This document shows positions 1 to 22,871 of a stretch of 31,475 nucleotides of DNA, piece by piece. Under the pieces are notes generated by a model, which was given only the letters and a program-made list of their open reading frames with translations, was not told the origin of the DNA and made no database searches. Within the stretch, counting starts at the first letter, position 1. Each line of letters opens with the position of its first letter. The stretch spans positions 1-31,475 of IMG/VR virus record IMGVR_UViG_3300024354_000050; one strand, given 5' to 3'. The position numbers and the translations under genes are program-made. The DNA comes from a virus.

Positions 1-437
1 TCATTTTTAATAATTTTATTTTGATTAACTAACTGCATAGCGGGAAAGAAACACTCTGCAAAATCTGTATTTGGAGTTCCAGGATACTTGGCCTTTTTAA
101 TAAACCAGTCGTTTACACCGAATACTGTTCCCACATTCCAGGAGTCTCCGAAAGGATAATGAAATCCACCAGATCCTTTGCCTGCCCAGTCTGTGAATTT
201 GATGCTCATCTTAAGACCAGCATCTGTGTATTTCATAAAATCGTCTTCTTTAATATCAAGTATGTGTAGCCATTCATTAATTTGACCTAATGTGCTTTCG
301 CCCACCCCTACAGTAGGAACATCTGCACTTTCAATTAAAGAGATAGTTTTTTCTGGAAAGAATTTTATAAGAGTTGCGGCAGTCATCCAACCGGCGCTAC
401 CACCTCCGACTACAACTATGCTATTGATTTTTGACAT
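1..437 (-). CDS. Flavin-dependent (tryptophan-type) halogenase, N-terminal part (halogenase D)
   Basis: The gene starts at 437 and runs off the left edge, leaving about 145 residues. The N-terminus has the FAD-binding signature GGGSAGW (residues 11-17) and a second flavin motif VGVGEST (43-49), both as in PrnA/RebH-type halogenases. K76, in the context LKMSIKF, aligns with the lysine that forms the halogenating adduct in PrnA (K79). The C-terminal half with the active-site Glu lies outside the window. The family uses FADH2, O2 and halide to halogenate aromatic substrates. VirX1 of cyanophage Syn10 is a characterised phage member. It begins 1 base after the preceding halogenase stops, so the two are probably translationally coupled. 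Of the four copies, this one keeps the most canonical N-terminal motifs. The substrate is unknown. Confidence 0.88.
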   Translation of the reverse strand, partial: MSKINSIVVVGGGSAGWMTAATLIKFFPEKTISLIESADVPTVGVGESTLGQINEWLHILDIKEDDFMKYTDAGLKMSIKFTDWAGKGSGGFHYPFGDSWNVGTVFGVNDWFIKKAKYPGTPNTDFAECFFPAMQLVNQNKIIKN

Positions 438-438
438 T

Positions 439-1935
439 TTATTTTCCTAAGGCTTTATTATAATTACCTATAAATTTTTCAAGACCTACTTTATGTGGAA
501 TATGAGGTAATGTATTTTCTAAATGTTTTTGTTCGTCGACAATCCTATCACAATGCTGTCTAATTTCCGGAGTCAGCATCATATATTCATGTTTGACACG
601 TTCTGGATTTAAGAGATTTAATCCGTGTAATGTAACTATCCAATTATCAGCAGTAAACAGTACATACTTTTGATCAAATTCTAATACCAATGGCAGTCGT
701 TTGCTCCACTTTTCTAAATTATCTTTTAATCTTTTAGGTACCCAGGTGTCTCTGTTATTTTTAAGATCCTTCCAGAATGCTGTATCTTCTCTGGGTACGT
801 AGTAATGTACTGCAATAAAATCTAAAATATTTTCGCAGATGTCGTCTACTCGTTTATTGTATATTCCGGCCACTTCGTCTGGACTGTTGGTCCAACTAGG
901 CAATAAATTCATAATTAAAAAAGTCTGCAAAATAGTTTGACTAATGGCACTACTTTCTAGTGGCTCTACAAAACTAGAACATAAGCCGATACTAGCGCAG
1001 TTTTTAATCCAAGTGCGGTCAAGTTTACCTGCATCAAACTTGATTTTCTTTGCTATGTTTATTTTTCTACCTAACTTTGCTTCGACTTCTGCCTGCGCCT
1101 GGTCGAAATCTATGTACTTGTCACTGAACACATAGCCGTTGCCCCATCGACCATGTACGGGAGTATTCCACATCCAACCATAATCCATACCGGTTGCGCT
1201 GGTGTAAATTGGATATTCGTCTGTATCTTCTGTAGGAAATGCAATAGCACTATTAACCCAAAGATTATCTTTATAACTTTCCCACTTTGCTCCAAGTTTT
1301 TTCATTATCACTTTGGCAAAACCAGAACAGTCAACAAAGAAATCTGCCGAGTGTACGGCATTTTCTCCAATTAGTTCTTTAACATATCCGTTGTCGTCTA
1401 AGATTACATCTACAATTTTATCATCTATTGTAGGAATGTTTCTTTCTTTACACAACTTATGTAAGTAGTCGTTGGTGGAAAATGTATTGAAATGAAATTG
1501 ATTAACAGGGCAAGGAACATTAAGATTTACCCAATCTTCGGGTACTGTGCTATCGATTGTACGTTTTTGAATAATGTCTAAAGGACCAGCACCTTCTGCA
1601 ATTAATTTAGCGTAAACTGCTAGATAATCTCCAGCGGGTCTTGCATAAGGTTCACAGGTAGCATGCCAGTAATCAGGCACACCCCAATTACTAAATTTTA
1701 TTCCTGTTTTAAGAGTAGCATCGCAGGCAACCAGCGTATCTTCTAACCTAACACCTATAGTTTCGCAGAAGTATCTCCAATGTTCTGTAGCGCCTTCCCC
1801 TACACCTATAACTCCAACGGAAGAACTTTCGATAACTTTAATATCTAAATGTTCATGTTGCCTTTTTAACATCAAGGCAGTAATTAATCCGCTGGTGCCG
1901 CCACCTAATACTATTATACTTTTAATTGTTTTCAT
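439..1935 (-). CDS. Flavin-dependent halogenase (halogenase C)
   Basis: The protein has 498 residues, close to the usual length of about 500 for tryptophan-halogenase-family enzymes. Visible motifs are the FAD loop GGGTSG (11-16), GVGEG (44-48), the catalytic-lysine equivalent K76 in ATLKTGIKF, and a WxWxIP variant reading WMWNTP (254-259, Ile replaced by Thr). The conserved FVEPLES block (322-328) carries the Glu equivalent to the PrnA/RebH active-site glutamate. It is most like halogenase A: both have TSGLITA after the glycine loop, where canonical enzymes have AGW. It overlaps the preceding halogenase by 14 bases, which suggests coupled translation. No flavin reductase lies nearby, so FADH2 would have to come from the host or from a gene outside the window. 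Family assignment is firm; substrate and halide preference are unknown. Confidence 0.93.
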   Translation of the reverse strand: MKTIKSIIVLGGGTSGLITALMLKRQHEHLDIKVIESSSVGVIGVGEGATEHWRYFCETIGVRLEDTLVACDATLKTGIKFSNWGVPDYWHATCEPYARPAGDYLAVYAKLIAEGAGPLDIIQKRTIDSTVPEDWVNLNVPCPVNQFHFNTFSTNDYLHKLCKERNIPTIDDKIVDVILDDNGYVKELIGENAVHSADFFVDCSGFAKVIMKKLGAKWESYKDNLWVNSAIAFPTEDTDEYPIYTSATGMDYGWMWNTPVHGRWGNGYVFSDKYIDFDQAQAEVEAKLGRKINIAKKIKFDAGKLDRTWIKNCASIGLCSSFVEPLESSAISQTILQTFLIMNLLPSWTNSPDEVAGIYNKRVDDICENILDFIAVHYYVPREDTAFWKDLKNNRDTWVPKRLKDNLEKWSKRLPLVLEFDQKYVLFTADNWIVTLHGLNLLNPERVKHEYMMLTPEIRQHCDRIVDEQKHLENTLPHIPHKVGLEKFIGNYNKALGK

Positions 1936-3421
1936 AAACCAATTTTACCCATTCTTCTAAAGTATAGCAGATTGATGTTATGTTGTCAACATCGTTAGAT
2001 AATTTTTGGTATGATTGGTGAAAGTCTTCAAATATAGTTGACCGTTTGGATAATAGACGTTGTCTAAGTTTGTCTTTATTGATTAAATCCAGTCCTTGGA
2101 TAACAACTGCATAATTTTCTAAAGCATATACTTCTGTATTGTCGATACCTAATGATCCAGATTTCCATAGATCTAATTTATGCTGTAATGACGCCGATAT
2201 ACGCTGTGGATTAGAGTTATGATCCTGCCAAAAATCGGAATCATTTCTGTGTCCTCGATAATGTAGTGAAAGGAAATCGCTGATATCAAACATTATTTTT
2301 TGATATTTGTCATTAAATGATTTTTGTTCATACACGGTATTACTGTCGGGAGACCAAAATTCTGACAATATTTTTAATTGTTCAGCAACAGATGCTAGTC
2401 CGTTCGACTCCAACGGCTCTAAAAATCCCGAACTAATTCCAACGGCAATTACATTATTTTTCCAAGAATTTAAAAACAACCCAGGTGTAAATTTTAAATT
2501 AGCCACCGGATCTATCTTTATATTAAAATATTTTTCTGCTTCGTCTATTGCCTGATCCGCAGTAATTCTGTCGGGGTCGTAAATGTATCCATTACCTGCC
2601 CTATGTTTTAAATTAATATTCCAAGACCATCCATTTTTCAATGCTGTCATTTCGGTATAATTTTTAAGTACAGGCTCGTTCCACCATGCTACAACTGCCC
2701 TAGCAGGAAAATATTCGCTTAAATCCTTAAAAGGTTCATTTAATTCTTTTTGTAGAAGTAGTCTGGCGAATCCGGAGCAATCAAAAAACCAATCTGCATT
2801 TATTTGATCCCTAGTATCTAATGTAATAGAATCAATGTCACCGTTGAGTGCTTTATTAGATTTAATATACTTGCCTTCGATTAGTTTAATCCCCTTGCTT
2901 ATGCCGCGACGTTTCATATAGTCGGCATTGGCGCGGCTGTCGAAGTGCCACATAGGTAGTGTAATAACATTAAATTTACCTACACTACTAGGACTGATAG
3001 GCAATTTATTCACACGCTGTAACGATCCGTTGTAGAATATTTTTTCAGTAGGTATGCCTTCCGCCAATGAACAGGCTAAAAAATCATTACCCAATCCAAA
3101 CTCTGGAAACTTAGCATTAAAGTCTAATCTATACCAGTCTGGTATAAGCCCATGAACAAACTCTGTTCCTATTCCGTTCCAATTTACAAATTTGCCGCCG
3201 AGTTTAGGCATGGCATTTACAGACACTATCCAGTCATCAAACGGAATTTCTAAAAAGTTGAATAGTTTATTAAGGGATGCGGAACCACTTTCTCCAGCAA
3301 TAATAGGTGGAGTATTAGGGTCTTCTATTACTGTCACATCGCAGGCAGGCCACACTTGTTTAACAAACAAAGCAGTTAACCAGCCAGCACTTCCTCCGCC
3401 TAATATTGCGATGGTTTTCAT
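1922..3421 (-). CDS. Divergent flavin-dependent halogenase (halogenase B)
   Basis: The protein has 499 residues. It shows a canonical FAD loop GGGSAGW (8-14), the lysine equivalent K73 in MPKLGGKF, and the SGFLEPLES block (331-339) with the active-site Glu. Two places depart from the family. The second flavin motif is IIAGESG instead of VGVGE, and the WxWxIP signature is WSWNIN (265-270), with Pro replaced by Asn. These changes surround the flavin and halide region and could mean altered activity or a non-halogenating monooxygenase. The gene overlaps halogenase A by 4 bases (ATGA) and the next halogenase by 14. It is the most divergent of the three complete copies, so these are old paralogues or separate acquisitions and not a recent tandem duplication. 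Confidence 0.88.
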   Translation of the reverse strand: MKTIAILGGGSAGWLTALFVKQVWPACDVTVIEDPNTPPIIAGESGSASLNKLFNFLEIPFDDWIVSVNAMPKLGGKFVNWNGIGTEFVHGLIPDWYRLDFNAKFPEFGLGNDFLACSLAEGIPTEKIFYNGSLQRVNKLPISPSSVGKFNVITLPMWHFDSRANADYMKRRGISKGIKLIEGKYIKSNKALNGDIDSITLDTRDQINADWFFDCSGFARLLLQKELNEPFKDLSEYFPARAVVAWWNEPVLKNYTEMTALKNGWSWNINLKHRAGNGYIYDPDRITADQAIDEAEKYFNIKIDPVANLKFTPGLFLNSWKNNVIAVGISSGFLEPLESNGLASVAEQLKILSEFWSPDSNTVYEQKSFNDKYQKIMFDISDFLSLHYRGHRNDSDFWQDHNSNPQRISASLQHKLDLWKSGSLGIDNTEVYALENYAVVIQGLDLINKDKLRQRLLSKRSTIFEDFHQSYQKLSNDVDNITSICYTLEEWVKLVYENN

Positions 3422-4878
3422 CGTTTCACTTCTTTTGCTAAGAATTCAATTGCGCCTCTGTGATTAAATTTAAGAGCATCGCGTTGGTATAATAATATAT
3501 TGTCGTATATTTTATCTGTTTCAGTAATAACAGAGGGATCCTGAGACATCCATATTTGTTTTATTTTTTCTATATCAAATAATTTTAAACCGTGTAATAC
3601 TTGTAACCAGTTCTGTTCTGTAAATAACACCCAGTGACTGGGAAAATATGCTCTACTTGGCACAACTGTTTTAAAGTGTTCCAGTGTATCTTTATTAAAC
3701 TCGGTCAACTTTAAATCTTTGCAACTACGCCAGAATGGTGTATCGTTACGTTGAGTGATGTAATGTAACTGTACAAAGTCAATAATGTTTTTAGCAACTG
3801 CTTCAAATTGTTGATTATATTTGTCCGCTATTTTTTCGTTGCCTTTAGTCCAAGATGCCAGTGCTGATCCTAGTGCAAACGCCTGTTGAATACTAGTTCC
3901 TATGCTAGTAGCCTCGAGAGGTTCAACAAAACTTCCAGCAAGACCTACTGCAACACAATTTTTAATCCAGAATTTATCAACATAACCTGCACTAAACTTA
4001 AAACTTTTACCTACTTGTATAGGATCTTTATAGTACTGTTGCATTTCAGACAATGCTTGATCGTCGGATAAAAATTCACTGGAATAAACGTAACCGTTGC
4101 CATAGCGTTCTTGCGTTGGTATTCTCCATGACCATCCGCTGGATAATGCACGACTCAGGGTCCAACTTGGAAACTCGTCGTCACTGGGTGTAGGAAAAGC
4201 AAACGCTCTGTCCATGGGTAAATATTCTTTACAATCATTCCACTTTGCGCCAAGTTTAGAACTAATGACTCTTCTGAACCCAGAAGAATCTACAAAGAAA
4301 TCTGCTGTATATTTGACACCGTCTTTGTTAATTAAAGAACTAATGTATCCTTGACTGTCAATTTCAACGTCGTCTATATCATCTTCAACAACAACTACTC
4401 CGCGTTCGATACATTTCTTGTGTAAAAATTTATTAAGTTTAAACGTATCAAAATGATATTGATTTACACTGGCATCGATAGGAAAGTAATGTATGGAATT
4501 AATGACATTATCTGGATATAAGTGCGGCTGATCTTCAGAAATTAATTTGACCATTACTCCTGGCAACCCGTTACCCATTAGTTGCGTATAATCGGCATGT
4601 AGAGCGTGCATATAAAATGTGCCGTCACCATTCCAATTTTCAAATCTAATACCTGCTTTGAAAGTAGCACCAGTTTCTAACATTAATTCTTGTAGAGTAA
4701 TCCCTACAGTATTAATAAACTGTTTCCAATGTTCTGTACTACCTTCTCCGACGCCGACAATACCTATAGTGGGAGACTCGATAATTTTAATATCCATGGT
4801 AGGATACCACTTATTGAGTACTAGTGCCGTTATTAGTCCGCTAGTACCTCCACCTAATATGCAAACGGACTTGATCAT
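3418..4878 (-). CDS. Flavin-dependent halogenase (halogenase A)
   Basis: The protein has 486 residues. Motifs in order are GGGTSG (9-14), VGVGEGS (42-48), K74 in ATFKAGIRF (equivalent of the PrnA catalytic lysine), a perfect WxWxIP signature WSWRIP (249-254), and SFVEPLE (316-322) with the active-site Glu. WxWxIP is the motif that separates halogenases from ordinary flavin monooxygenases, so this copy has everything expected of an active halogenase. It overlaps the preceding unknown gene by 4 bases (ATGA-type) and the following halogenase by 4. It is first of the four-gene tandem in transcription order. The substrate cannot be told from sequence: free tryptophan, a peptide or protein side chain, or a phenolic metabolite are all possible. 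Confidence 0.94.
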   Translation of the reverse strand: MIKSVCILGGGTSGLITALVLNKWYPTMDIKIIESPTIGIVGVGEGSTEHWKQFINTVGITLQELMLETGATFKAGIRFENWNGDGTFYMHALHADYTQLMGNGLPGVMVKLISEDQPHLYPDNVINSIHYFPIDASVNQYHFDTFKLNKFLHKKCIERGVVVVEDDIDDVEIDSQGYISSLINKDGVKYTADFFVDSSGFRRVISSKLGAKWNDCKEYLPMDRAFAFPTPSDDEFPSWTLSRALSSGWSWRIPTQERYGNGYVYSSEFLSDDQALSEMQQYYKDPIQVGKSFKFSAGYVDKFWIKNCVAVGLAGSFVEPLEATSIGTSIQQAFALGSALASWTKGNEKIADKYNQQFEAVAKNIIDFVQLHYITQRNDTPFWRSCKDLKLTEFNKDTLEHFKTVVPSRAYFPSHWVLFTEQNWLQVLHGLKLFDIEKIKQIWMSQDPSVITETDKIYDNILLYQRDALKFNHRGAIEFLAKEVKR

Positions 4879-5636
4879 TTTTTTAAGATCCTTCTAAAGA
4901 ATCTACAAATCCAAGGTTCTGATTTTACTAATTTCTTTGGACGTAATCTATTTGGAATGACCCCCGACACAATTTTCCAACTTAAATTGTTTTGATATGA
5001 TTTAAGAGACACAGAAGAATTTACAATATGATCGAGTTCTTCTGTTCTTGGTTGTTTGTTTAATTGAAACATTGCCTGTGGGTCTCTTGCTCTAAATCTT
5101 ACATAGGCTAACGGCTGTCCTCTCTTAAATTCAATTCTGTCATTGAGCATTTCAAAAGTAGGAACCAGCGGACGTTGCCAATTACAAATATTAAAACTGC
5201 CAGGCATCAATCTCCATCTTAAATCGATATGATTATAAGGAGGTAAAAAGTCTACCCATACTTCTTCGTCTGCATAGAACAGCATGGCGCTGTTTAATGC
5301 AACTATAGGTTTATCAACTTCAGGATTAAAATCTCCCCAGTGAACTTTGACCATAGCATCGTGTGCAAGACTTGGAAGATTACTGCTTAAAACTTTATTA
5401 TATTTGTCCCAGTGCAATTCTACATCAATTAAAGAACGTATTACCCATGTTTGTTCGTTATACTTTACAAATGCAGGGCATTTCATAAATCCTACTTTTG
5501 AATCTTTCCATGTGTCTAACTTTTCTAAATCAAAATGAATAATTTCGTTCCAGCCGTAATAATTTAGCGGACCCAGTCCGCTAGTATTTGGAGATTTTTC
5601 AAACCATGGAGTATATCCTACTTTTACAACTGACAT
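4875..5636 (-). CDS. Protein of unknown function inside the halogenase/oxygenase operon
   Basis: The protein has 253 residues and no motif I can assign with confidence. It is rich in Trp, Pro and aromatics, with a Gly-Tyr-Thr-Pro-Trp segment near the start, a long predicted beta-rich middle, and a very basic C-terminus (several Arg/Lys with two Trp/Phe in the last 30 residues). The central pattern (PGSF, then NWQRPL, then RGQPLAYVRF) is vaguely like a small beta-sandwich family often listed as DUF6065, but that is a weak recollection and not an assignment. Start and stop are fixed by coupling: TAATG with the upstream gene and ATGA with halogenase A. Its position between oxygenases and halogenases suggests a shared pathway, perhaps as substrate binder or accessory subunit. 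Confidence 0.8.
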   Translation of the reverse strand: MSVVKVGYTPWFEKSPNTSGLGPLNYYGWNEIIHFDLEKLDTWKDSKVGFMKCPAFVKYNEQTWVIRSLIDVELHWDKYNKVLSSNLPSLAHDAMVKVHWGDFNPEVDKPIVALNSAMLFYADEEVWVDFLPPYNHIDLRWRLMPGSFNICNWQRPLVPTFEMLNDRIEFKRGQPLAYVRFRARDPQAMFQLNKQPRTEELDHIVNSSVSLKSYQNNLSWKIVSGVIPNRLRPKKLVKSEPWICRFFRRILKK

Positions 5637-5902
5637 TATTCGTCCTTAAAATTATCATTAAAACTATACCAACTAGTCCATTTACCATAAGGACAACTTT
5701 GTGATTTATTTCTTACGGTCTTGGGCATAAAATATCCAGTAATAGTACAGCCGTAATTTTCATACGACTTACAGTTATTGCATATTTCTAAACGTTTTTG
5801 TTCTACTTCTCTTGGGACTAGTAAAATTTTTTCGTTGAAGTGAACTCTACGTTGCGATGTATCAAGGTTTCTTATAACACGAGGTACTTTTTTATCTTCC
5901 AT
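5636..5902 (-). CDS. Small Cys-motif protein (probable zinc-binding, DUF6171-like)
   Basis: The protein has 88 residues and four cysteines spaced as CNNC (41-44), then C52 and C70, followed by PYGKW. This resembles small phage proteins with the pattern CxxC, C, FM, CPxGKW (DUF6171-like), which are probably single zinc-binding domains. The N-terminal half is basic and may be extended. It starts 11 bases before the end of the upstream oxygenase and its stop codon overlaps the next start (TAATG), so it is embedded in the operon. No enzymatic residues are visible; binding nucleic acid or a protein partner are both possible roles. Confidence 0.8.
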   Translation of the reverse strand: MEDKKVPRVIRNLDTSQRRVHFNEKILLVPREVEQKRLEICNNCKSYENYGCTITGYFMPKTVRNKSQSCPYGKWTSWYSFNDNFKDE

Positions 5903-6665
5903 CAGCGCCTCCAGTGAGCATTGCTTTTAATTGATTTATAATAATTTCCTGAGTATGTAACTTATTAAACAAATAATCCATGGTACTGTTATTCGATTCC
6001 ACTATTACGGGAGTTGAAAAATTATCAGGCATTGTAGTTTCTTTAACGACCGGATATGGTTGTTGAGAATCTAAGTATACTCCGCTGTATCTTAAATTAA
6101 ATGTGATTACTATACGTTCATCATCAGTGTGACTTACTTCAGTTTTATGTCTCAACCATCCAGGAAACATTAACACATCGCCTGATTTAATATGAATTGT
6201 GGTATTAATTTTTTCTTCTACAGGACGATTGTAAGGAATGTGTGTAATACTGTATTCCATAGGATTAGTAAACACTATTCCTCCACTACGTTCAGGAGCA
6301 CTTAGATAAAAACTTACAACAATAGGGTGCATACTATGAGAATGCCAGTCAGTAAAACTACCGTTAACGTGTTTATTAGACCAGCACTCGTCTATTGCAG
6401 GGCGCAGACCGTCGTTGATATCCAGGACTTTCCAATATAAATTTGCATGATACAAAATTAAATCGCACAATGCTTTAAATTCTGGTACTTCATGCAAATT
6501 TCTATTAGTGCCGTAGGTACTTATACCGCCATTTTTTTCCAACCCAACATGAAATTTTATTTCCTTGTATTGTTGTTCAAGCGTAGACCTTATGACTCCA
6601 AAGTCTATATCAGAGTCAAAAATATTAGTTTTGTAGATAGGTAACGCAAATAAATTTTGAATCAT
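5892..6665 (-). CDS. 2OG-Fe(II) oxygenase, TIGR02466 type
   Basis: The protein has 257 residues. The N-terminus begins with the LFALPIYKTN pattern seen in TIGR02466 / 2OG-FeII_Oxy_5 proteins. Metal-site residues are visible: an H-x-H pair at H108/H110 in DWHSHSMH, then SFYLSAP and GGIVFTNP, and the distal His H173 in LMFPGWLRH. R184 in DERIVITFNL probably binds 2-oxoglutarate. Such enzymes couple 2OG decarboxylation to hydroxylation of a side chain or small molecule. About 60 residues after the core form an extra C-terminal tail ending in a predicted helix (about 228-250). The start overlaps the upstream oxygenase stop by 4 bases. Substrate unknown. Confidence 0.86.
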   Translation of the reverse strand: MIQNLFALPIYKTNIFDSDIDFGVIRSTLEQQYKEIKFHVGLEKNGGISTYGTNRNLHEVPEFKALCDLILYHANLYWKVLDINDGLRPAIDECWSNKHVNGSFTDWHSHSMHPIVVSFYLSAPERSGGIVFTNPMEYSITHIPYNRPVEEKINTTIHIKSGDVLMFPGWLRHKTEVSHTDDERIVITFNLRYSGVYLDSQQPYPVVKETTMPDNFSTPVIVESNNSTMDYLFNKLHTQEIIINQLKAMLTGGADGR

Positions 6666-7273
6666 TTAACTTCGGCTTCAATATCGCCACTAAAATCAAA
6701 CTTATTAACAAACGTCTTAAAAGAAATATATTTTCTTAATTCTGTACAATTTCTGTTAGGAGCAAGGCCTCTGTGAGGAATGTTACTGTCAAATACAATA
6801 CAAGTATTAGGCATTGGATAATAACTGGCTATAATATTTCCTTGATTGTCAAAAAATTGCAGTTCACCGCCCCATTCCGGGCTCCATTCTTTATTAGGAA
6901 AATAACACATTGTCATATAACCGTCGCCGTTTGAATTAAATTCAAACTCTCTGTCAACGTGTATATTTCCGTCTAGGCCAAATGTTTTGCCGCCGGCAAC
7001 AACGTCAAGACTTTTAAAGTTATAACCTTTGACTCTAGGATCTAGTGCTTCGAGTTTGTCAATAATATCCTGAAATAATACTTCTGTCCAACGATTTTTA
7101 ACCATATCTACAGACCAAAAGTTTGCGTTATCTTCGATATCAAAGCCAGCGGCATTAATTTTTATAACACCGTATTTCCAAACTCCGTCGTTTAAATCTG
7201 CAATAATGTTAGCAAAAACATCTTGCTTTGCAACGTTTTCGAGATAAAAAATTTCTGGTAATTTGTTAGACAT
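6662..7273 (-). CDS. 2OG-Fe(II) oxygenase (HxD type)
   Basis: The protein has 203 residues and a complete 2-His-1-carboxylate site: H105-x-D107 in NIHVDRE, distal H167 in NIPHRGLAP and R180 in LRKYISFK for 2OG. The strand between them (MTMCYFP, then WGGELQFFD) is the jelly-roll core typical of prolyl-hydroxylase-like phage 2OG enzymes. It is the first gene of the halogenase operon. It has a clear Shine-Dalgarno AAGGAGAA (7282-7289) and a late promoter box 27 bases upstream of the ATG. The next gene overlaps its stop by 4 bases. It is probably catalytically competent; substrate unknown. Confidence 0.9.
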   Translation of the reverse strand: MSNKLPEIFYLENVAKQDVFANIIADLNDGVWKYGVIKINAAGFDIEDNANFWSVDMVKNRWTEVLFQDIIDKLEALDPRVKGYNFKSLDVVAGGKTFGLDGNIHVDREFEFNSNGDGYMTMCYFPNKEWSPEWGGELQFFDNQGNIIASYYPMPNTCIVFDSNIPHRGLAPNRNCTELRKYISFKTFVNKFDFSGDIEAEVK

Positions 7274-7281
7274 ATATGTAA

Positions 7282-7307
7282 TTCTCCTTAATTCGACAAT
7301 ATTTAGT
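7282..7307 (-). promoter_or_regulatory. Late promoter ACTAAATA plus strong ribosome site for the halogenase operon
   Basis: On the minus strand the box ACTAAATA (7307-7300) matches the T4 late-type consensus TATAAATA at its last six positions. AAGGAGAA (7289-7282) sits 8 bases before the ATG at 7273. No -35 element is evident, as expected for gp55-type late promoters. The box lies in a 50-base gap behind the previous gene, which has no visible terminator, so the operon can also receive read-through. Confidence 0.65.
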
Positions 7308-7323
7308 GGGGTATTTTTGTGAT

Positions 7324-7962
7324 TTACTTAGATCCGGCTTGGATAGCAATATTACCTGCTACGGAAATCCTGTAATCGTCGGACGTATAAAATGGGTGTA
7401 CTTCGTGCATACATTCTGCTGGAAACAACAACATTTTCCCTTCCCATGTCTTATCCATGAATATAGGATTTTTAGTTATTTTACCAAACGAATTTACATA
7501 GAAAAATTCAAATGCTGATGCTAGATTTTTATTAGAGTTTACCCCAGGACTTGCAGCCAACTCTTCATTGAGGTCATATGGAATTTGTAAGTATATTACA
7601 AAACTATATAGACCTAGATGTGTATGCGCTGGATTGAATTCATATTTTTTCTGAAAATTAACCCATAGTGTGTCTACAGCGAAATCTAATCGCCCTGGTT
7701 TAAACACGCTGATATTAGAATTATATTTGAACAGCTCGTTATAAGTTTCGGCTACATTAAATGCAAATGGCTCTACTACCGAAATGGAGTCTTTTAATGA
7801 ATATTCTCTCTGAATATTACCAGCCAACGTGTGGTTAGTAGCAGAAGCATGGTCAAAGTCTTTTTGTATTTCTTTAACTTCCTTCCACAAAGTGTCCATA
7901 ATTTCTTTAGGAACGTCTTCAATAATATAGCCAAACGAATTAAATGTTTGATAATAACTCAT
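7324..7962 (-). CDS. 2OG-Fe(II) oxygenase, TIGR02466-like
   Basis: The protein has 212 residues. Visible site residues are the pair H113/H115 in NPAHTHLG, a following strand SFVIYLQIPYD, distal H186 in LFPAECMHEVHP (H189 is an alternative) and R198 in DDYRISVAGN. The order H-x-H, Y-L-Q-I-P, M-L-L-F-P, H, R-I-S-V-x-G-N is the TIGR02466-like architecture. It overlaps the upstream oxygenase by 4 bases. It is the last gene before a 50-base gap that contains a fresh late promoter, so it ends the gp14-gp15-led gene run. Substrate unknown. Confidence 0.85.
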   Translation of the reverse strand: MSYYQTFNSFGYIIEDVPKEIMDTLWKEVKEIQKDFDHASATNHTLAGNIQREYSLKDSISVVEPFAFNVAETYNELFKYNSNISVFKPGRLDFAVDTLWVNFQKKYEFNPAHTHLGLYSFVIYLQIPYDLNEELAASPGVNSNKNLASAFEFFYVNSFGKITKNPIFMDKTWEGKMLLFPAECMHEVHPFYTSDDYRISVAGNIAIQAGSK

Positions 7963-8558
7963 ATAATAATTGGAATAAATCCCATGTTATCAAAAATTCT
8001 ATCTCGATGCTCTAAGTCAAATCCAAATGTAATTCGTTCACCCTCGTACGGTTCTAAAATTTCTACATGATGAAATCTACTACCAGGGCCTATGTAAAAC
8101 TGTCCTACTTTGTTTTCAACTCTGTACAACTCTTTGCCGTTAGGCTTATCTGTAAACACAGTATGACTTTTCTTAGGATCTATAGCCATAAATCCGTGTA
8201 AAGGCCAATCATGATTATGTGTTTTAAGAACCTGTCCATTTTTATGACTGTTAATCCAAGCCTGCAACCATAGTTGTTTTGGCTTTTCGATACCCGCTAG
8301 TTCGTGATATTGTCTAATTCCGTCGATTAAACTTGTATAGATATCATAGAACCATTGATTACAAGAACAAAGACCAAACACATTATAGTTAGCAAACTGC
8401 CAGGTAATGTTGTCTGTGCCAACAGCATAATTACGTGCATTAAATTTTCTTTTAAATTTATCAATACCTATGTCTGTCATGCGTTGAATGTCTGCAATAT
8501 TTTCAACAACATGCGGAACATCAAATGTCATGTATTGATATTCACTGTTGTAATACAT
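7959..8558 (-). CDS. Putative 2OG-Fe(II) oxygenase-like protein
   Basis: The protein has 199 residues. The C-terminal half carries a likely double-stranded beta-helix: H114 and H116 in KTHNHDWPLHG, then GQFYIGPG, a distal His pair H163/H164 in SRFHHVEI and R175 in GERITFGFDL. The spacing fits the 2OG-Fe(II) oxygenase fold, but the first ligand cluster (HNHDW) makes the carboxylate ligand uncertain (D117 is a candidate). The N-terminal 100 residues are Trp/Tyr-rich and specific to this group. It overlaps both neighbours (17 bases upstream, 4 downstream), consistent with coupled translation. I place it in the superfamily with moderate confidence. Confidence 0.75.
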   Translation of the reverse strand: MYYNSEYQYMTFDVPHVVENIADIQRMTDIGIDKFKRKFNARNYAVGTDNITWQFANYNVFGLCSCNQWFYDIYTSLIDGIRQYHELAGIEKPKQLWLQAWINSHKNGQVLKTHNHDWPLHGFMAIDPKKSHTVFTDKPNGKELYRVENKVGQFYIGPGSRFHHVEILEPYEGERITFGFDLEHRDRIFDNMGFIPIII

Positions 8559-9123
8559 TTCTTCTCCTAATTACTTCGTCTATTACTTCTTGTGTGGACG
8601 CAAAACTATGTCGTCCGTCAAATCTTCTATCAGAATAAGGACCCTGCTTATCTACATAATGGAAAAACCCCTGATAGTGAAAATCATTTTCTAACGCATG
8701 CCGCCAGTGTAGATTTTTAACACCTTTATAAATTAAGATATCTCCAACGTCTAATAAAATTTCATGCCCTCTATTGCCAGACTGAACATAAATGGGCCAT
8801 ATATTTTTATCGTATTTTAAAGTAAGTGTAAAACTATATTCGCACTCAAACCTATCGATATGTGGATTTAACGCTTCATTTTTTGTATAAATCCTTGAGT
8901 AAGTGTATGTTGGAAATAACTTCTTTTCCACTAGTTCTTCTATTTTAGGTAACCACAATTTTGATTCGTCATTAAAAATTCCATAAAAAGTAGGACTAGA
9001 CGGACACTGATTATCCGGCGGCAAGTTATAACCTTTTTTATAAAAGTCGTCTAATTTTTCAACCATACGATTGCAAGTATCTGCATCTGCAAATCCTTTG
9101 ATAACTTTGTAATCTTCCTTCAT
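8542..9123 (-). CDS. 2OG-Fe(II) oxygenase (HxD type)
   Basis: The protein has 193 residues when started at the ATG at 9123. A longer reading from 9165 adds 14 residues that overlap the previous gene and look unlike the family, so it was rejected. The ATG lies 1 base after the previous stop (TAAtATG). Site residues are H88-x-D90 in NPHIDRF, then SFTLTLKY, DVGDILIYKG, and the distal His H139 in LHWRHAL (H142 is an alternative). The HWRH context followed by GFFHYVD is the form seen in many marine-phage 2OG oxygenases. A basic C-terminal helix ends the protein. Substrate unknown. Confidence 0.86.
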   Translation of the reverse strand: MKEDYKVIKGFADADTCNRMVEKLDDFYKKGYNLPPDNQCPSSPTFYGIFNDESKLWLPKIEELVEKKLFPTYTYSRIYTKNEALNPHIDRFECEYSFTLTLKYDKNIWPIYVQSGNRGHEILLDVGDILIYKGVKNLHWRHALENDFHYQGFFHYVDKQGPYSDRRFDGRHSFASTQEVIDEVIRRRNVLQQ

Positions 9124-9124
9124 A

Positions 9125-9775
9125 TTATTTCCAATAACATTCCATAGGATCCGCAGGTTGCACAAAATCTTCAGGATTTAATTTTAAAATTTGATCCTTA
9201 TTATCAATAGCATTGATAATTTTGTTGTATACCATAAGATTATTTTCTTTGGTTAAATGACATTTTCTGTTTTCATTGTTACCTGGATGATCTAGACCAT
9301 AGAATTGTAATTCTAAATCAGCATAGTGGCACAATGACCAAGAATTTAAATTAGGCAAACTTTCTAAAAATGCAGGGACAACTAACACATCCTGATACTG
9401 TAATATGTCATTAACCATAAAATTATGAAACGCAGTTTCTCGTTTGCTGGAATAAAAGTACCTAAAATACATTTCTCCAATGTTAATGCCATCCCATACT
9501 GGCCATGTACTAGGATTTAAATTCAAATGCTTATTGTTATATTCTACATGAATTCTGCCCGGAACTGTTACCACAAATATTGCCAAATCGTAACTGGCGT
9601 GAGTTTCTAAAAATTTATCATAACTCCACCACATGCTAGAACCTGTAAGAGAATAATTTTTGACAGTGTATTTCTGTTCTAACATCTCAGGCCACGACAA
9701 ATAGTCGTTTTGTACCCACGACGGATCTGAAAAACTATCCCCGTATATGGCTAATTTAGGTTTCTTGTTCATCAT
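9125..9775 (-). CDS. SGNH/GDSL-type hydrolase-like protein
   Basis: The start was chosen at the Met-Met pair at 9775, giving 216 residues. A longer reading from 9874 would overlap the previous gene by 119 bases. The N-terminus has the GDSFSD block (12-17) after a beta strand (KLAIY), the block-I signature of SGNH hydrolases with nucleophile Ser14. A GSSMWW block (45-50) fits block II. The C-terminal block V should read DxxH. Here the region reads NRKCHLT with H172 but no Asp three residues before, so the catalytic dyad is incomplete or uses another acid. Family members remove acyl or other ester groups, often from sugars or peptides. Its place among oxygenases suggests a shared modification pathway. 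Confidence 0.75.
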   Translation of the reverse strand: MMNKKPKLAIYGDSFSDPSWVQNDYLSWPEMLEQKYTVKNYSLTGSSMWWSYDKFLETHASYDLAIFVVTVPGRIHVEYNNKHLNLNPSTWPVWDGINIGEMYFRYFYSSKRETAFHNFMVNDILQYQDVLVVPAFLESLPNLNSWSLCHYADLELQFYGLDHPGNNENRKCHLTKENNLMVYNKIINAIDNKDQILKLNPEDFVQPADPMECYWK

Positions 9776-10409
9776 ATATAAAATTAAGGTTACAGAAAAA
9801 TGGTTGAAATAGTCTACCCGTCTCAGGCGTTGAACCAAAATACCTATCCGATTTGTGCCAAGCATTTGGTCCATAAATTATAGCACGATTATATACGTTA
9901 GGTATAGACATTGTCTGTTTAAAAAATTTATGAAATTCTTTGCTGTCCTGATCTCGATTTAATTTAAACCACAAATGATTATTACGTGCGGCATATTCTT
10001 CAAACTCTTGTCTGTGTTCTTCGTTAAATTTGTAAAACAAAGTTCCTGAATTATCAGGAGGATTTGGATGCAAATACACAACACCAACATGAGTACAATG
10101 CCACGTGGGCGTGTCGTAGTGTACCCAAGAATCTCCATCGGATTCGTAGCACAGTTGAAAATTTGTTTCAATATATCCGCCGTATTTTATAGGATTATTT
10201 TCTAATAAATTTCCAAGAAACGCATTATGAAATTCGTCGGACAATTCTTGATTAAGATTGTGTAAGAAACTTGTTCTTCGTCCAGGCCAGTTGCCTCCTG
10301 CATTGGCTTCTTTACAATTTTTAAATTCTTGATTAAGAGCAAACTTTCGTATTTTGTCAGGATCTTTGTAAAAATTATCTATAATTAATATTTTGTCATT
10401 CATCCACAT
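9756..10409 (-). CDS. 2OG-Fe(II) oxygenase-like protein (DUF6445-like)
   Basis: The protein has 217 residues. The site is complete: H97-x-D99 in SWVHYDTPTWH, the strand VGVVYLHPN, GTLFY, distal H185 in GPNAWHKSDRYFG and R199 in TGRLFQPFF. This arrangement matches the family I recall as DUF6445, a 2OG-oxygenase-like group common in marine phages and bacteria. The family name is from memory and should be checked. Met3 is an alternative start only two codons in. It begins 2 bases after the upstream gene ends, and the following hydrolase overlaps it by about 20 bases. Substrate unknown. Confidence 0.83.
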   Translation of the reverse strand: MWMNDKILIIDNFYKDPDKIRKFALNQEFKNCKEANAGGNWPGRRTSFLHNLNQELSDEFHNAFLGNLLENNPIKYGGYIETNFQLCYESDGDSWVHYDTPTWHCTHVGVVYLHPNPPDNSGTLFYKFNEEHRQEFEEYAARNNHLWFKLNRDQDSKEFHKFFKQTMSIPNVYNRAIIYGPNAWHKSDRYFGSTPETGRLFQPFFCNLNFIYDEQET

Positions 10410-10411
10410 GA

Positions 10412-10984
10412 TTATTCTCCAAAGACTAGATCAAAACTTACGGAAATGCGATCTTCTTGTGACTCGTTGGGCATGACAAAATGTTCTAAAAATGACGGAA
10501 ACAATATTAATTCCGTTTCATAGGGAATAAAATTTTCGCTATCACCCTGATTAAAAATTCTATTTGTAGTGGAATTAATAGCCGCTGGCCTCGGATCTCT
10601 GAAGCATATATTACCCGAGTCAACGGGAACTTTCAAATAAAATACGCCGCTTAGGTGATATTCATTACCATGTGCGTGAATTACATTAAAATCTTTGTGC
10701 TTGTTAACACAGGCCCACATTTGTTTGATAGAGATATTTTTATTAAACAACCAAAACACAGTACTGGCTATTTCATCAGTTAATTGAGCAAACGCAGGAT
10801 TGTCAAATAAATTTACTTCGCTTTGCCAGCCACCATAGTTTGATTTTTTAACAGCAGACTCCGTGGATTGTAGTCTATAAATTTCAGAAATCATACTAGG
10901 CATATCTAAAATGCGTATTTCAGAAACATACACAGTGGTAGGCCATAAATTCACCGGTTTAATGTTAACGAAACTTTGGCCCAT
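10412..10984 (-). CDS. 2OG-Fe(II) oxygenase, TIGR02466 type
   Basis: The protein has 190 residues and is a compact TIGR02466 (2OG-FeII_Oxy_5) protein. After an N-terminal NLWPTTVYV strand it shows H103-x-H105 in NVIHAHGNE, LSGVFYLKVP, SGNICFRDPR, ELILFPSFLEH with distal H168, and R179 in EDRISVSFDL. These blocks are the hallmark of the family, in which the first metal motif is H-x-H in place of H-x-D. It overlaps the upstream prolyl-hydroxylase-like gene by 20 bases. It is probably an active dioxygenase of unknown substrate. It is related to, but clearly diverged from, the TIGR02466 copy at 5892-6665. Confidence 0.9.
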   Translation of the reverse strand: MGQSFVNIKPVNLWPTTVYVSEIRILDMPSMISEIYRLQSTESAVKKSNYGGWQSEVNLFDNPAFAQLTDEIASTVFWLFNKNISIKQMWACVNKHKDFNVIHAHGNEYHLSGVFYLKVPVDSGNICFRDPRPAAINSTTNRIFNQGDSENFIPYETELILFPSFLEHFVMPNESQEDRISVSFDLVFGE

Positions 10985-11549
10985 GTACCCATCCTACTAG
11001 TGTATAACGTGTTCCTTTGGTAACCGGCGTTACTTCGTGAATAGACCAACTAGGAAATGCTGCCAACATACCCTTTTCTTTTTTCACTGTCATTGGTTCG
11101 TCTAATTTAAAGCGATAGATATTTAAATCACCGCCCTCATAATCGCTCGGGTCTGATAATTGTAGAGTAAAACTTAATTTTCTATAATGATTTGAATCAT
11201 ATCCGTCGTCTGTGTGATTTCTATACATACCCTGATAAGACTCGTCGTATTCGGAAAATTGTAAATCTTCTATCTGGGTTAATTCGTAGTCGTAAAATGC
11301 CTTGTTTACTTTTGTAATAGCATCTGTTAAGCGTTCAAAAATAAAAACAGTGGAAGCATCTGGTCCTATCCACGAGATTTTACTACGTCTTGCCCATTGT
11401 GCATCTTGATCTTTATTTTCGACACCACCGTCTACAGACGGCTTAGATTTACCAATAGCAATAATACGTGCAATTTCTTCGTCAGTAAAAACGTTCTTAA
11501 TCCAAATATAAGGTTCGTTTGGTGGTTTTTGGTGATGGATGGGCCACAT
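10965..11549 (-). CDS. 2OG-Fe(II) oxygenase, prolyl-4-hydroxylase/PKHD-like
   Basis: The protein has 194 residues. It shows the full prolyl-4-hydroxylase-like signature: H112-x-D114 in NHTDDG, then KLSFTLQLSD and YEGGDLNIY, distal H171 in FPSWSIHEVTPV and R181 in TRYTLVGWVHGP. This is the form found in PKHD-type hydroxylases such as PiuC and in many T4-like cyanophage 2OG enzymes. Members hydroxylate prolyl or other residues or small molecules; the phage versions have no established substrate. Its ATG overlaps the final base of the Nudix stop codon (TAATG), so translation is coupled. It is the best-conserved oxygenase in the island. Confidence 0.92.
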   Translation of the reverse strand: MWPIHHQKPPNEPYIWIKNVFTDEEIARIIAIGKSKPSVDGGVENKDQDAQWARRSKISWIGPDASTVFIFERLTDAITKVNKAFYDYELTQIEDLQFSEYDESYQGMYRNHTDDGYDSNHYRKLSFTLQLSDPSDYEGGDLNIYRFKLDEPMTVKKEKGMLAAFPSWSIHEVTPVTKGTRYTLVGWVHGPKFR

Positions 11550-11983
11550 TAAATTAACTCTACAATATCAAAAATAGTTTGTAATTTTGTTCTGATAGTT
11601 TTGTTGCTAAAACTGCTACGCAAACCTTGATGTAAAGGTTTAGGAGAACTATCTACAGTTGACCATGCCCATCCATTGTGCTCTTTGCTTAGTACAGGAA
11701 TAAATTCTTGTTCTATAACACAAAGGTAGGTGTGGAAATTAAAAACGCTGTCATTACTAACAAACGTTTCTATAGGAATTGTTTTGATTATTTTTGGAAC
11801 AGAACCAATTTCTTCTTCGATTTCTCGTTGAAGCCCTTGCCATGCAGTTTCGCCTTCGACGTTAGTGCCGCCAACTAACCCCCATGTGCCCGCGTGTTTG
11901 CCTTCTGCTTTTTGTAGCAGTAGGAATCGTTTAGTGTTTTTGGCATAGAAAAGTGCGCCAGAGCAGACTATCTGTTCTTTCAT
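11549..11983 (-). CDS. Nudix hydrolase
   Basis: The protein has 144 residues. The Nudix box GX5EX7REUXEEXGU is complete: G39, E45, R53-E54, E57-E58 and G60. The core strand AGTWGLVGGT precedes it, as in MutT-like pyrophosphatases. These hydrolyse a nucleoside diphosphate linked to another group (dNTPs, NDP-sugars, cofactors or capped RNA), with Mg2+ bound by the box glutamates. It lies 13 bases after gp15 and is coupled to the next oxygenase, so it is probably co-transcribed late. The exact substrate cannot be read from the sequence. Confidence 0.92.
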   Translation of the reverse strand: MKEQIVCSGALFYAKNTKRFLLLQKAEGKHAGTWGLVGGTNVEGETAWQGLQREIEEEIGSVPKIIKTIPIETFVSNDSVFNFHTYLCVIEQEFIPVLSKEHNGWAWSTVDSSPKPLHQGLRSSFSNKTIRTKLQTIFDIVELI

Positions 11984-11996
11984 GCACTTACTTAGT

Positions 11997-13427
11997 TTAG
12001 AATATCAAACGCCAGTGCCCTTTTCGATATTCGCCTTCGAATGATTTTGTCCATTCTCCGTCTAAGAATTTGTATTGTATACCGGTTCTAAGATTGGTAA
12101 TATATACAGGTGTGCCTACTAGGTCAGGATCCGCAGGGTCTAATACTACTTCCCAGTGTGTACCTGCCCATTCTATAATACTGTTTGCTTCGGCATAGAA
12201 GTCTGTGCCGTCTTGATTTTTCCACCCGTCTGGTCCATCATCATTAATAGTGTCGCCTATGCTTTCTAAAATAATGTATCTAATAGGACCATTGGTCATG
12301 TCGGGCCAATCTAATGCGCCACCTGGTAATCTTGGACGTGGATTGAATCTTGTTGGGTCAACAATAGCATCTACAGATCCTCTAAGAACAGAATTATTAG
12401 CATTGGCTATCAGTGTGTTAGTTGGGAATGTATCTTGGTCCCAATTAACGTGTAATATTGTACTATCGTCTGCGTCTTCGCTGAGAGTGCCCACTATCTG
12501 ATTACCGTCGTCTTGAATTAAAAACACTTGACTAACACCTGTTCTAAATTTACCAGGGTACTGTTCAAATATAAAATTCCAACTTATATCTGCACCTATT
12601 TTAGTAAACACCGAATCGGCAGCATCGTCGATTAATAAAGGTTCTCTGCCCTTTAATAAACTTAATTTATTGTTATAAACTAATATACCGTAGCCCGCAA
12701 CGTTATTAAATTCTACTGCCGCTGGCTTGCCGCTGACAAAATCTGGTGTTAAATTACCTGTAGCATCAAAGATATTCATTAATACATCTGTTACTACACC
12801 TAATTTCTTAACTTTAGTAGGAGCACTGATCCATATAGGAGTTTCAAACGTTAAACTGCCTACATCAATTTCTGTTTCAGCACCTACAGGAATACTTCTA
12901 GAACTAAAGGTGATATCTGTTAGTTCTACAACACTTAAACTAGTCCAGTCTAGGAAGTTATCTGTTGTTTGTATTTCTAAACTTGGATTAAACAACATTA
13001 GAATCTGCTCCATAATTTGCAGTTTCATATCTGTGTTTGTAGTCCATATATCTGCTTTAAGAGTGAGCTTATATGGTGTTGGCATTAGTCGCTCAACAGT
13101 AAAATTATTACCTTGTTTAGCAGTATATTCGCCCGTGACATCGTCATATTCTCGTTCACGAATATGCACTTTGCTAACAAAAGTACTATCACCTAAGCGA
13201 GTTTTATCCATAGCCAAGCCAGTAATGTAGACTGCTATACGAGGTGCGCTGGGCAGTTTATTTTCTGAATTGTCTTTGATTACTTGACCTACTTGACGAG
13301 TCATATCGCCGTAGATTACAGGCACGGTAATTTGTTTTCCGTCACCTGTTTGATACTTAAATCCGCTTAACATACGGATTACCTGTCCAATATATCGCCT
13401 TATTTGGCCGTCATAAAACCATTGCAT
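11997..13427 (-). CDS. 15: Tail sheath stabiliser / tail completion protein (T4 gp15-like)
   Basis: The protein has 476 residues; T4 gp15 has about 272. Residues 1-205 align by pattern with T4 gp15: FYDGQIRRYIGQVIRMLSG at the N-terminus, ITVPVIYGD, an LTLKADIWTTNTD strand block, MKLQIMEQILMLFNPSLEI and a late LTFETPIWISAP block. In T4, gp15 caps the end of the tail tube and sheath and joins the tail to the neck. About 270 extra residues follow, rich in Gly, Asp and Trp and ending in Trp-Gly repeats (WAGTHWEVV, FLDGEWTKS), probably an added beta-domain. It overlaps gp14 by 1 base. Confidence 0.87.
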   Translation of the reverse strand: MQWFYDGQIRRYIGQVIRMLSGFKYQTGDGKQITVPVIYGDMTRQVGQVIKDNSENKLPSAPRIAVYITGLAMDKTRLGDSTFVSKVHIREREYDDVTGEYTAKQGNNFTVERLMPTPYKLTLKADIWTTNTDMKLQIMEQILMLFNPSLEIQTTDNFLDWTSLSVVELTDITFSSRSIPVGAETEIDVGSLTFETPIWISAPTKVKKLGVVTDVLMNIFDATGNLTPDFVSGKPAAVEFNNVAGYGILVYNNKLSLLKGREPLLIDDAADSVFTKIGADISWNFIFEQYPGKFRTGVSQVFLIQDDGNQIVGTLSEDADDSTILHVNWDQDTFPTNTLIANANNSVLRGSVDAIVDPTRFNPRPRLPGGALDWPDMTNGPIRYIILESIGDTINDDGPDGWKNQDGTDFYAEANSIIEWAGTHWEVVLDPADPDLVGTPVYITNLRTGIQYKFLDGEWTKSFEGEYRKGHWRLIF

Positions 13428-15041: not shown

Positions 15042-15049
15042 TATTTATC
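15042..15049 (-). promoter_or_regulatory. T4-type late promoter box for gp14-gp15 unit
   Basis: The minus-strand sequence is GATAAATA (15049-15042), seven of eight bases of the T4 late consensus TATAAATA. The gp14 ATG follows after 7 bases (TATTACT). It is one half of an inverted repeat with the plus-strand box at 15055-15062, giving a divergent promoter pair. Confidence 0.72.
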
Positions 15050-22377: not shown

Positions 22378-22823
22378 ATGTAAAATGTATAAACTTCGTT
22401 AATAGGATGTTCTTTAGGTTGTGGAGTTAGCTCGTTTGCCCTAGGAAAGTACACAGCATATTTGGTAGGCCAGTTGGGATTTAAGAACGCACGAGCTATG
22501 AATCTGTTACAATTAGGCAACACAACTTTTAATAGTTTCTCGCAGTAATCTTGACCAAATGCTAATGCGCCGTCTACTATGATTGTGTCCCAATGTTCGT
22601 TTAGTGTAAACCAGTCTCGATTCTTAATCTTAGGATCCGCATACTTAGGTTCTAAATCCCATGCTTCTGTACACAAAGGCAATAGCATTTTAGTGCTTCC
22701 TAGCAGTAAAACTTTGCCCGTGCAATATTGTTCAAAGACACAATAATCGTCCTCGTTAGGAGCCGCCGGCCACTTTAAATTAGTCCAAAAGTCTAAATCT
22801 TTGTGTGTTTCATTGTCTAGCAT
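22362..22823 (-). CDS. Methyltransferase-like Rossmann protein
   Basis: The start was placed at the ATG at 22823, giving 153 residues. A longer GTG reading from 22859 would put the late promoter inside the gene. Visible features are a motif-I-like strand and loop KVLLLGSTKMLLPLC (37-51), an acidic strand end WDLEP (55-59) and a motif-IV-like WDTIIVDGALAF (78-89), which fit a small class I SAM-dependent methyltransferase fold. The glycine loop is degenerate (GSTKML), so SAM binding is not certain. The ATG lies 7 bases after a late box. It is coupled to QueC by a 16-base overlap, which suggests a joint role in nucleic-acid or nucleotide modification, but that is inference. Confidence 0.72.
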   Translation of the reverse strand: MLDNETHKDLDFWTNLKWPAAPNEDDYCVFEQYCTGKVLLLGSTKMLLPLCTEAWDLEPKYADPKIKNRDWFTLNEHWDTIIVDGALAFGQDYCEKLLKVVLPNCNRFIARAFLNPNWPTKYAVYFPRANELTPQPKEHPINEVYTFYIWNNK

Positions 22824-22830
22824 CACAGGG

Positions 22831-22846: not shown

Positions 22847-22871
22847 TTAGAGCATTCACGGAAACCGACTC

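Follow-up and report, generated by a model that had tools for sequence, protein, structure and literature searches.

Halogenase and 2-Oxoglutarate-Type Oxygenase Genes Form a Phage Cassette That Recurs Beside Adhesin Genes

The virus fragment IMGVR_UViG_3300024354_000050, a 31-kb IMG/VR record analyzed here at its full 31,475 nucleotides (the window), carries in its left half a single minus-strand run made up of gp14, gp15, a NUDIX hydrolase, eight 2-oxoglutarate (2OG)-type oxygenases, an SGNH-type hydrolase, a small four-Cys protein, a protein termed UnkA, and four flavin-dependent halogenases. The genes behind gp15 (the island) represent a gene cassette that, together with its recurrence beside adhesin genes in other phages, is well supported. 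The best explanation, and the most economical function, is that of a late cassette hydroxylating and halogenating phage receptor-binding proteins, a proposal on which our judgment is evenly balanced. The enzyme families are known; the novelty is the unit that couples halogenases, 2OG-type oxygenases, a dUTPase-fold partner, and glycine-rich adhesins. We found no published description of a phage cassette joining these four in the open-licence literature, outside of which most subscription papers lie.

The Oxidative-Enzyme Island

The island was described in an earlier note on this DNA, and every open reading frame (ORF) named there is present on the minus strand where it had been placed. The composition needs one addition, a NUDIX hydrolase gene (11549–11983; PF00293, 5.2e−15) between gp15 and the first oxygenase. 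The tight spacing holds (overlaps or 1–2 bases, with a 50-base gap before the oxygenase gene at 6662–7273), apart from an extra 13-base gap between gp15 and the NUDIX gene. The six minus-strand terminator-like sites listed are all within genes; on both strands together the window has 16 such sites vs. 8.1 ± 3.3 in shuffles. A precursor resembling those of ribosomally synthesized and post-translationally modified peptides was considered and rejected on account of the short gaps (1–50 bases), a search aimed at precursors not having been made.

The run continues past the window. G001, a 270,181-base phage contig with 99.997% identity to window bases 1–29132 (the stretch compared), completes the fourth halogenase and then encodes UnkB, a relative of UnkA, and three further 2OG-type genes, of which OxI (25.3 bits) and OxJ (24.8 bits) fall just below Pfam's cut-off of 27 and OxK lies above it. 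The whole island thus holds 15 oxidative-enzyme genes (11 2OG-type genes and four halogenases). Its end abuts a convergent phrog_1787 gene, followed by three phrog_863 genes, two small genes, and then giant fibres of 3,835 and 2,670 aa. The three phrog_863 proteins, which we treat as adhesins, contain 20–23% Gly, with conserved glycine runs in a 39-row alignment.

Flavin halogenases are recognized by a flavin-binding GxGxxG motif and a catalytic Lys and Glu. The prediction of four such enzymes was borne out for all four, with PF04820 scores of 104–350 bits against a cut-off of 21: Hal1 (3418–4878, 350 bits), Hal2 (1922–3421, 294 bits), Hal3 (439–1935, 305 bits), and Hal4, which is cut by the window end (3–437, 104 bits) and complete in G001 (58696–60267, 523 aa), all on the minus strand. 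The glycines G9, G11, and G14 of GxGxxG, K74, and E319 are invariant in 14 rows that include all four proteins (Hal4 by its complete G001 copy). By profile and motif, Hal1–Hal4 are predicted flavin-dependent halogenases. They occupy four separate places in the halogenase tree, a quick tree with long branches, and a recent tandem duplication was rejected on this ground. The nearest PDB entries to Hal1 are 9luq and 6frl (the latter we take to be BrvH), ahead of VirX1, the halogenase of cyanophage Syn10. Hal2 sits within its own six-row clade. Full-length Hal4 matches VirX1 (6qgm) at 9e−104 over positions 1–520, with 351 bits vs. 276 for the next PDB match, and falls in a 21-row clade with VirX1 and both Syn10 halogenases (SH-aLRT 94, with no resolution inside the clade). 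This clade also holds other adhesin-linked cyanophage halogenases. A very divergent fourth halogenase-like protein of about 385 aa (23–24% identity, long branch) is encoded at L025:12252, with relatives in the contigs G012, G014, and G015; it recurs within the adhesin-linked cassette, and its activity is doubtful.

The 2OG-Fe(II) oxygenases are marked by an HxD/E...H metal triad and an Arg. Eight had been predicted in the window, and five of them pass a Pfam 2OG cut-off; of the others, OxC is recognized only as DUF6445, OxE lies below the cut-off, and OxD has no Pfam match. All eight carry H-x-D or H-x-H, and the distal His and Arg of some were read by eye. The HxD group, all on the minus strand, consists of OxA (10965–11549; PF13640, 62.7 bits), OxC (9756–10409; PF20043, 53.9 bits, with a 2OG-like H97xD), OxD (8542–9123; phrog_2954, 9.3e−39, H88xD), and OxG (6662–7273; PF13640, 36.6 bits, H105xD and H167). 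PF20043 (DUF6445) carries no oxygenase name, and divergent OxD has only two of 38 relatives in common with other 2OG sets. OxA is PKHD/prolyl-hydroxylase-like: the nearest solved relatives of its family profile are PiuC PKHD hydroxylases (2.2e−9) and prolyl 4-hydroxylases (7e−4), and H112, D114, H171, and R181 are invariant in a four-row alignment. The PKHD/prolyl hydroxylase group includes protein modifiers.

HxH is found in the other four, likewise on the minus strand, where 2OG enzymes usually show H-x-D/E. These are the TIGR02466-type enzymes OxB (10412–10984; PF13759, 70.4 bits; TIGR02466, 83.5 bits) and OxH (5892–6665; PF13759, 55 bits; TIGR02466, 67.1 bits), the PF13759-type OxF (7324–7962, 42.5 bits), and the divergent PF13759-like OxE (7959–8558; phrog_2696, 1.3e−45; phrog_81, 4.4e−7; 19.3 bits to PF13759, cut-off 27). 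H103, H105, H168, and R179 are invariant in a 10-row alignment that includes OxB, OxF, and OxH, and the HxH proteins may have a three-His metal site. Three PHROG labels on oxygenase-type proteins may be wrong: "minor coat protein" for phrog_1644 (9756–10409), "ferrochelatase" for phrog_2954 (8542–9165), and "DNA endonuclease V" for phrog_274 (6662–7273).

UnkA (4875–5636, minus strand; phrog_17480/7084) and UnkB form one halogenase-partner family with 76 members in the loci studied, some of them redundant. The UNK profile had no match among PDB sequences, and the likeness to dUTPases came from a fold search. The UnkB model (mean pLDDT 80) has dUTPases for all of the best 50 matches listed, with Z scores of 11.0–11.8 and root-mean-square deviations of 2.4–5.7 over 112–142 residues; the model of UnkA itself is poor (pLDDT 64). 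Catalysis in dUTPases depends on motifs 1 and 5. None of the 76 members matches text patterns for either motif, so the family was rejected as a dUTPase in spite of its fitting fold, and its role is likely non-catalytic. A gene of this family lies at gene distance 1 from a halogenase in 11 of 14 whole contigs, and in eight of the 10 that were not picked for adhesins.

Recurrence Beside Adhesin Genes

In Syn10, a single-strand row holds fibres, phrog_863 adhesins, phrog_1787, two halogenases, and phrog_7084 (the UnkB family), along with a series of 2OG, JmjC, and DUF6445 genes. The kinds of genes are those of G001, in a different order and on a different strand. The second Syn10 halogenase is most likely VirX1 itself, because it has 530 aa vs. 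531 in 6qgm. Of 23 phage loci obtained, 20 were analyzed for phrog_863, the near-duplicates L133, L138, and L139 being left out; these 20 come from named phages with a halogenase and represent 82 records at roughly one phage for each type. Eleven of the 20 have phrog_863, and in nine of these it lies 389–685 bases from the halogenase with phrog_1787 between; the two exceptions are S-B64 and P-SSM2, the latter with a weak match to phrog_863. phrog_1787 was found in 19 of 29 halogenase records. By tblastn, the Syn10 adhesin and the Syn10 phrog_1787 protein match one identical set of 20 records (about nine phage types), a search that misses S-B64, which has both by profile; at least 19 of the 20 adhesin records are also among the best 60 of the 82 halogenase records.

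The layout recurs with other adhesins. Adhesins are followed by halogenases on the same strand in G009, G012, G014, and G015, and in the loci L033 and L069 unrelated Gly-rich proteins (31 and 32% Gly) are followed by 2OG genes and a halogenase. S-SRM01 has a lone halogenase between a tail fibre and an annotated adhesin tip with 19% Gly. The adhesins beside cassettes thus differ among phage groups and have high Gly (19–32%) as their common trait. In T2-type gp38 tips, glycine-rich motifs flank hypervariable receptor-contact regions (PMC12892980). The comparison with gp38 is one of Gly content and not of homology, and modifying enzymes go unmentioned in the available part of that paper.

Counts were made over 66 non-redundant halogenase loci, which combine scan results with hand-picked loci, many of them cut short, and stand without a background expectation. 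A 2OG gene, by the profiles built here, lies within eight genes in 52 of the 66, and the same span holds a poly-Gly adhesin-like gene in 39; an UnkA/UnkB relative is found within two genes in 26. Where at least eight genes are present on both sides, the poly-Gly gene is found in 14 of 23 loci. The 14 whole contigs have 73 2OG genes, of which 33 are no more than six genes away from a halogenase vs. about 7.8 expected; on the 10 contigs not picked for adhesins the figure is 19 vs. 4.2 expected. A poly-Gly gene within eight genes was counted on 12 of the 14 (P = 1.2e−6), a biased figure because Syn10, P-TIM40, S-SRM01, and G001 were chosen with their layout known. The fairer count is eight of the 10 unpicked contigs vs. 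3.1 expected (P = 0.0013); these 10 are partly related, G024, G025, and G037 among them had previously been inspected, and G020, which lacks both fibre-like and poly-Gly genes, was excluded (8/11 if scored as a miss). A poly-Gly rank test on the 14 contigs gave 0.001. A fibre-composition rule, fixed before its test yet after several loci had been read, gave a combined P of 0.008 on the 10 unpicked contigs.

The co-occurrence of halogenase, 2OG, and partner families across phage loci is what the earlier note had proposed to look for in gene neighborhoods. Independent shuffling of these genes, which would have spoken against a single system, is mostly not what we see, except that lone halogenases far from adhesins do exist (P-SSM2 type, S-B64). 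The link that the earlier note had hinted at between halogenases and TonB-receptor loci in bacteria had no counterpart that we could find in the literature, and TonB genes themselves were not searched for. Genome contigs scanned with the UnkB family gave two relatives. Neomarinimicrobiota and Maricaulis metagenome-assembled genome (MAG) contigs (L129, L130, L174, and L177) carry 2OG and UNK genes next to genes that look fibre-like by eye, with halogenases in the Maricaulis MAG; these contigs may represent phage DNA that was sorted into bacterial bins. In one MAG, four halogenase loci, also read by eye, divide into L130/L174 and L177 beside fibre-like genes and L175 and L176 with only enzyme genes.

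Phage Kinship and Exchange of the Island

T4-like cyanophages had served as the comparison in the earlier note. By gp15, a single marker, the nearest relatives are instead jumbo phages: 15 records at ≥80% coverage comprise PA5oct-like, Phosso, Atu_ph07, and SCTP-2 phages of 284–490 kb with 30–34% identity. Synechococcus phages make up nine of the 73 records matched, all ranked below the best 40.

Three relatives of G001 keep its general gene order (G006, G007, and G008). In G007, gp14 and gp15 are 91–92% identical to those of G001 and 44–46% to those of G008, the island proteins are 66–91% identical to those of G008, and the NUDIX protein closely resembles both counterparts (88 and 80%). With neck genes that are G001-like and island proteins that are G008-like, G007 has kept its neck genes while its enzymes were swapped as one unit, the switch lying near the gp15/NUDIX border. 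G007 is too short to cover the adhesins. Between G006 and G001, the adhesins and phrog_1787 are 65–75% identical, the enzymes mostly 49–83%, and gp14 and gp15 41–45%; the adhesins and phrog_1787 are thus about as near to G001 as the enzymes are, and nearer than gp14 and gp15. G008 does not discriminate, since adhesins, enzymes, and gp14/gp15 have all diverged from G001 alike. Ratios of non-synonymous to synonymous change (pN/pS) against G006 are 0.15–0.43 for 16 island genes, with saturated synonymous distances (dS); the comparison excludes OxF, OxH, and Hal3, and the SGNH value is invalid because the start used was out of frame. The block exchange in G007 and the recurring halogenase, partner, and 2OG neighbors agree with the suggestion that the genes form one coupled system.

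Late-Type Promoter Motifs

A late-type promoter motif, GATAAATA, heads the run upstream of gp14 (15042–15049, minus strand), and a late-like motif, CTAAATATT, lies in the 50-base gap (7298–7306, minus strand; three in the window vs. 0.79 by chance). GATAAATA is enriched upstream of G001 genes (10/116 vs. 0.6 expected); within the window alone it is not significantly over-represented (four found, a number reached by 20 of 100 shuffles). G001 has 32 [GC][AT]TAAATA sites, of which 24 occur no more than 90 bases ahead of a gene on their own strand, 23 of those being intergenic; the genes that follow gene-proximal sites include those for the tail tube, giant fibre, and gp14. The exact T4 late motif TATAAATA was also tried and rejected, with one window match vs. 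3.96 expected, which is below chance; the motif enriched upstream of genes is GATAAATA. From the late-type motif before gp14, late expression of the island is likely, as is the production of its enzymes along with virion proteins that the earlier note had expected. Sigma-70-like sites ≤90 bases upstream of G001 genes number 20 and are all on the minus strand, and late-type sites occur on both strands.

Other Features of the Window and G001

The run begins with a gp14-like virion structural protein (13427–15034; phrog_11591, 1.1e−81) and the gp15 tail sheath stabilizer (11997–13427; PF16724, 5.8e−22). Within the island are an SGNH-type hydrolase with a GDSF motif (9125–9772), whose start is most likely the ATG at 9772 and whose match to AlgX is weak and below the cut-off, and a small four-Cys, DUF6171-like protein (5636–5902; PF19668, 8.4e−5, below the cut-off). 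All four genes are on the minus strand.

Elsewhere in the window, the minus-strand stretch 21778–22859 encodes a pair of proteins, one QueC-like and the other 165 aa long and matched by neither Pfam nor PHROG, between plus-strand virion genes. A Cys-rich, HNH-like minus-strand ORF (24656–24991, read by eye) and a kinase-like gene on the plus strand (24061–24741) share 86 bases at the end of the latter, an overlap that recurs in G008 and G014. In G001, 32 tRNA genes lie at 239723–252576, one of them with a CUA anticodon (called tRNA-Pyl), and only four of 178 ORFs longer than 150 aa end in TAG; amber suppression is possible in this phage.

Proposed Function and Alternatives

That tail components are targets of the enzymes, as the earlier note had supposed, is plausible from the adhesin adjacency, and the likely target can be narrowed to the glycine-rich type of adhesin. 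The island would supply the enzymes of a module for late virion maturation, its halogenases and 2OG-type oxygenases being produced alongside neck proteins during the late program that also yields the tail fibres. The enzymes would modify amino-acid side chains in receptor-binding proteins of the phage itself, namely the adjacent phrog_863-type adhesins and perhaps the giant fibres as well. Hydroxylation would fall to the prolyl-hydroxylase-like and TIGR02466-type enzymes, and halogenation to the flavin halogenases, acting on aromatic residues (Tyr, Trp, and His) between poly-glycine strands, the expected site of host-contact loops. UnkA and UnkB, with their dUTPase fold, may form a trimer that has no catalytic activity and docks the enzymes onto the fibre, itself a trimer. 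The benefit may be a binding surface that is changed or harder to escape. All of this is inferred, from the adhesins as substrate and the choice of residues to what the partner does, whether it is a trimer, and how the phage benefits. Besides the adhesin neighborhoods and the block exchange, the pN/pS ratios of the island genes, the trimeric VirX1 with its large accessible active site, and the PKHD and prolyl hydroxylases nearest to OxA count in favor of the proposal.

LodB, GoxB, and QhpG are flavoenzyme maturases that tailor proteins by oxidizing residues of a protein encoded beside them. Hal1 is weakly similar to all three, far under their cut-offs. Action on the product of an adjacent gene is what the cassette may have in common with them; they are cellular and not viral, and they are not halogenases. 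VirX1 is among the closest known systems. Hal4 matches it over its full length and shares its clade, and the kinds of neighboring genes in Syn10 are alike. VirX1 was described as trimeric, with an active site that is large and accessible, and as a small-molecule halogenase, without a link to adhesin genes in the available part of that description (PMC8407142), and the phage of the window differs in having four halogenases from four clades.

Several observations weigh against adhesin modification. Adjacency is no proof of modification, and fibre regions readily recombine. No poly-Gly gene lies within eight genes in 27 of the 66 loci (some of them because they are cut short) or in nine of the 23 loci whose flanks both extend for eight genes or more, and the negative loci include most P-SSM2-type halogenases, S-PM2, S-SSM7, and S-MbCM6. 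The poly-Gly rule was set only after some adhesins had been read, and single-contig rank tests are weak (0.02–0.39). The S-B64 halogenase, of the VirX1 clade, is about 85 kb from its phrog_863 and phrog_1787, and in S-SRM01 neither a 2OG gene nor a partner gene accompanies the halogenase. Identity of the 3,835-aa fibre to its G006 counterpart is just 37%, so this fibre does not track the island. In HTVC008M, the halogenase lies beside terminase genes, downstream of neck genes that a run of 2OG genes adjoins. VirX1 acts on small aromatics in vitro (PMC8407142).

The HTVC008M arrangement is also what one would expect if the enzymes modify something other than an adhesin, such as giant fibre shafts, the neck, the baseplate, or a host-surface molecule (e.g., in a superinfection block), as is the position of the G001 island behind gp14–gp15 under one late-type promoter and near fibres of 2,670–3,835 aa. 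We consider a non-adhesin target unlikely, since the adjacency of phrog_863 and phrog_1787 is constant in nine of the 11 phages with phrog_863, unrelated phages have a Gly-rich adhesin-like gene beside the cassette, and the block exchange parts the enzymes from gp14/gp15. Trp-rich repeats of the giant fibres, resembling carbohydrate-binding modules, were examined as targets and rejected; the repeats are few and Trp is not enriched.

The action of VirX1 on small aromatics likewise suits an auxiliary metabolic role, in which halogenases would act on free tryptophan or a small aromatic (an antibiotic or signal) and the 2OG enzymes would tune 2-oxoglutarate/nitrogen signaling. The printed readings are of this kind: prnA in cyanophages has been read as antibiotic protection by chlorinated tryptophan (PMC2984593, PMC9964418), and 2OG genes as 2OG/nitrogen (NtcA) signaling (PMC3037559). 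2OG genes were counted in 76 of 153 cyanophages and flavin halogenases in 20 of 153 (PMC10452541). The enzyme families are those of the cassette; in print they are treated as separate metabolic genes (PMC3037559, PMC10452541), and here they form a late, adhesin-linked unit. The term "tail fiber" is absent from the main text of PMC10452541, as is "halogenase" from that of PMC6224464, on experimental evolution with S-TIM4, and for the 14 proteins from S-CREM1 virion proteomics neither an adhesin nor a modification is named in the available portion of PMC9964418. One simple conversion would call for fewer enzymes than four divergent halogenases and as many as 11 divergent oxygenases, Pfam scans of the island recognized no transporter, synthetase, or resistance gene, and the late-type promoter and adhesin adjacency also speak against metabolism, which we therefore regard as rather improbable.

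It is more improbable still that the fibre–neck border is merely a hot spot that gathers mobile accessory genes, with enzymes and adhesins as neighbors without mutual action: a hypervariable gp17–gp18 region in cyanophages (PMC3037559) and the block exchange at the gp15/NUDIX border fit such cargo, but halogenase, dUTPase-fold partner, and 2OG genes are found together repeatedly in phages of different gene content, with the partner directly next to the halogenase in 11 of 14 whole contigs and in eight of the 10 not picked for adhesins.

Implications for Phage–Host Contact

Adhesin modification is directly testable, because named phages with recorded hosts share the neighborhood: Syn9, Syn10, and several others have Synechococcus or Prochlorococcus as recorded hosts. 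More broadly, and somewhat short of an even chance in our estimation, many phages, marine cyanophages included, may diversify their receptor-binding tips post-translationally through a halogenase/oxygenase cassette docked by a dUTPase-fold protein, altering host contact without a change in the adhesin gene. If so, the natural substrate of VirX1 would be a phage adhesin, prnA and the 2OG genes would have an alternative to their antibiotic and nitrogen-metabolism readings, and the chemistry would take place on the very part of the phage that decides host binding.

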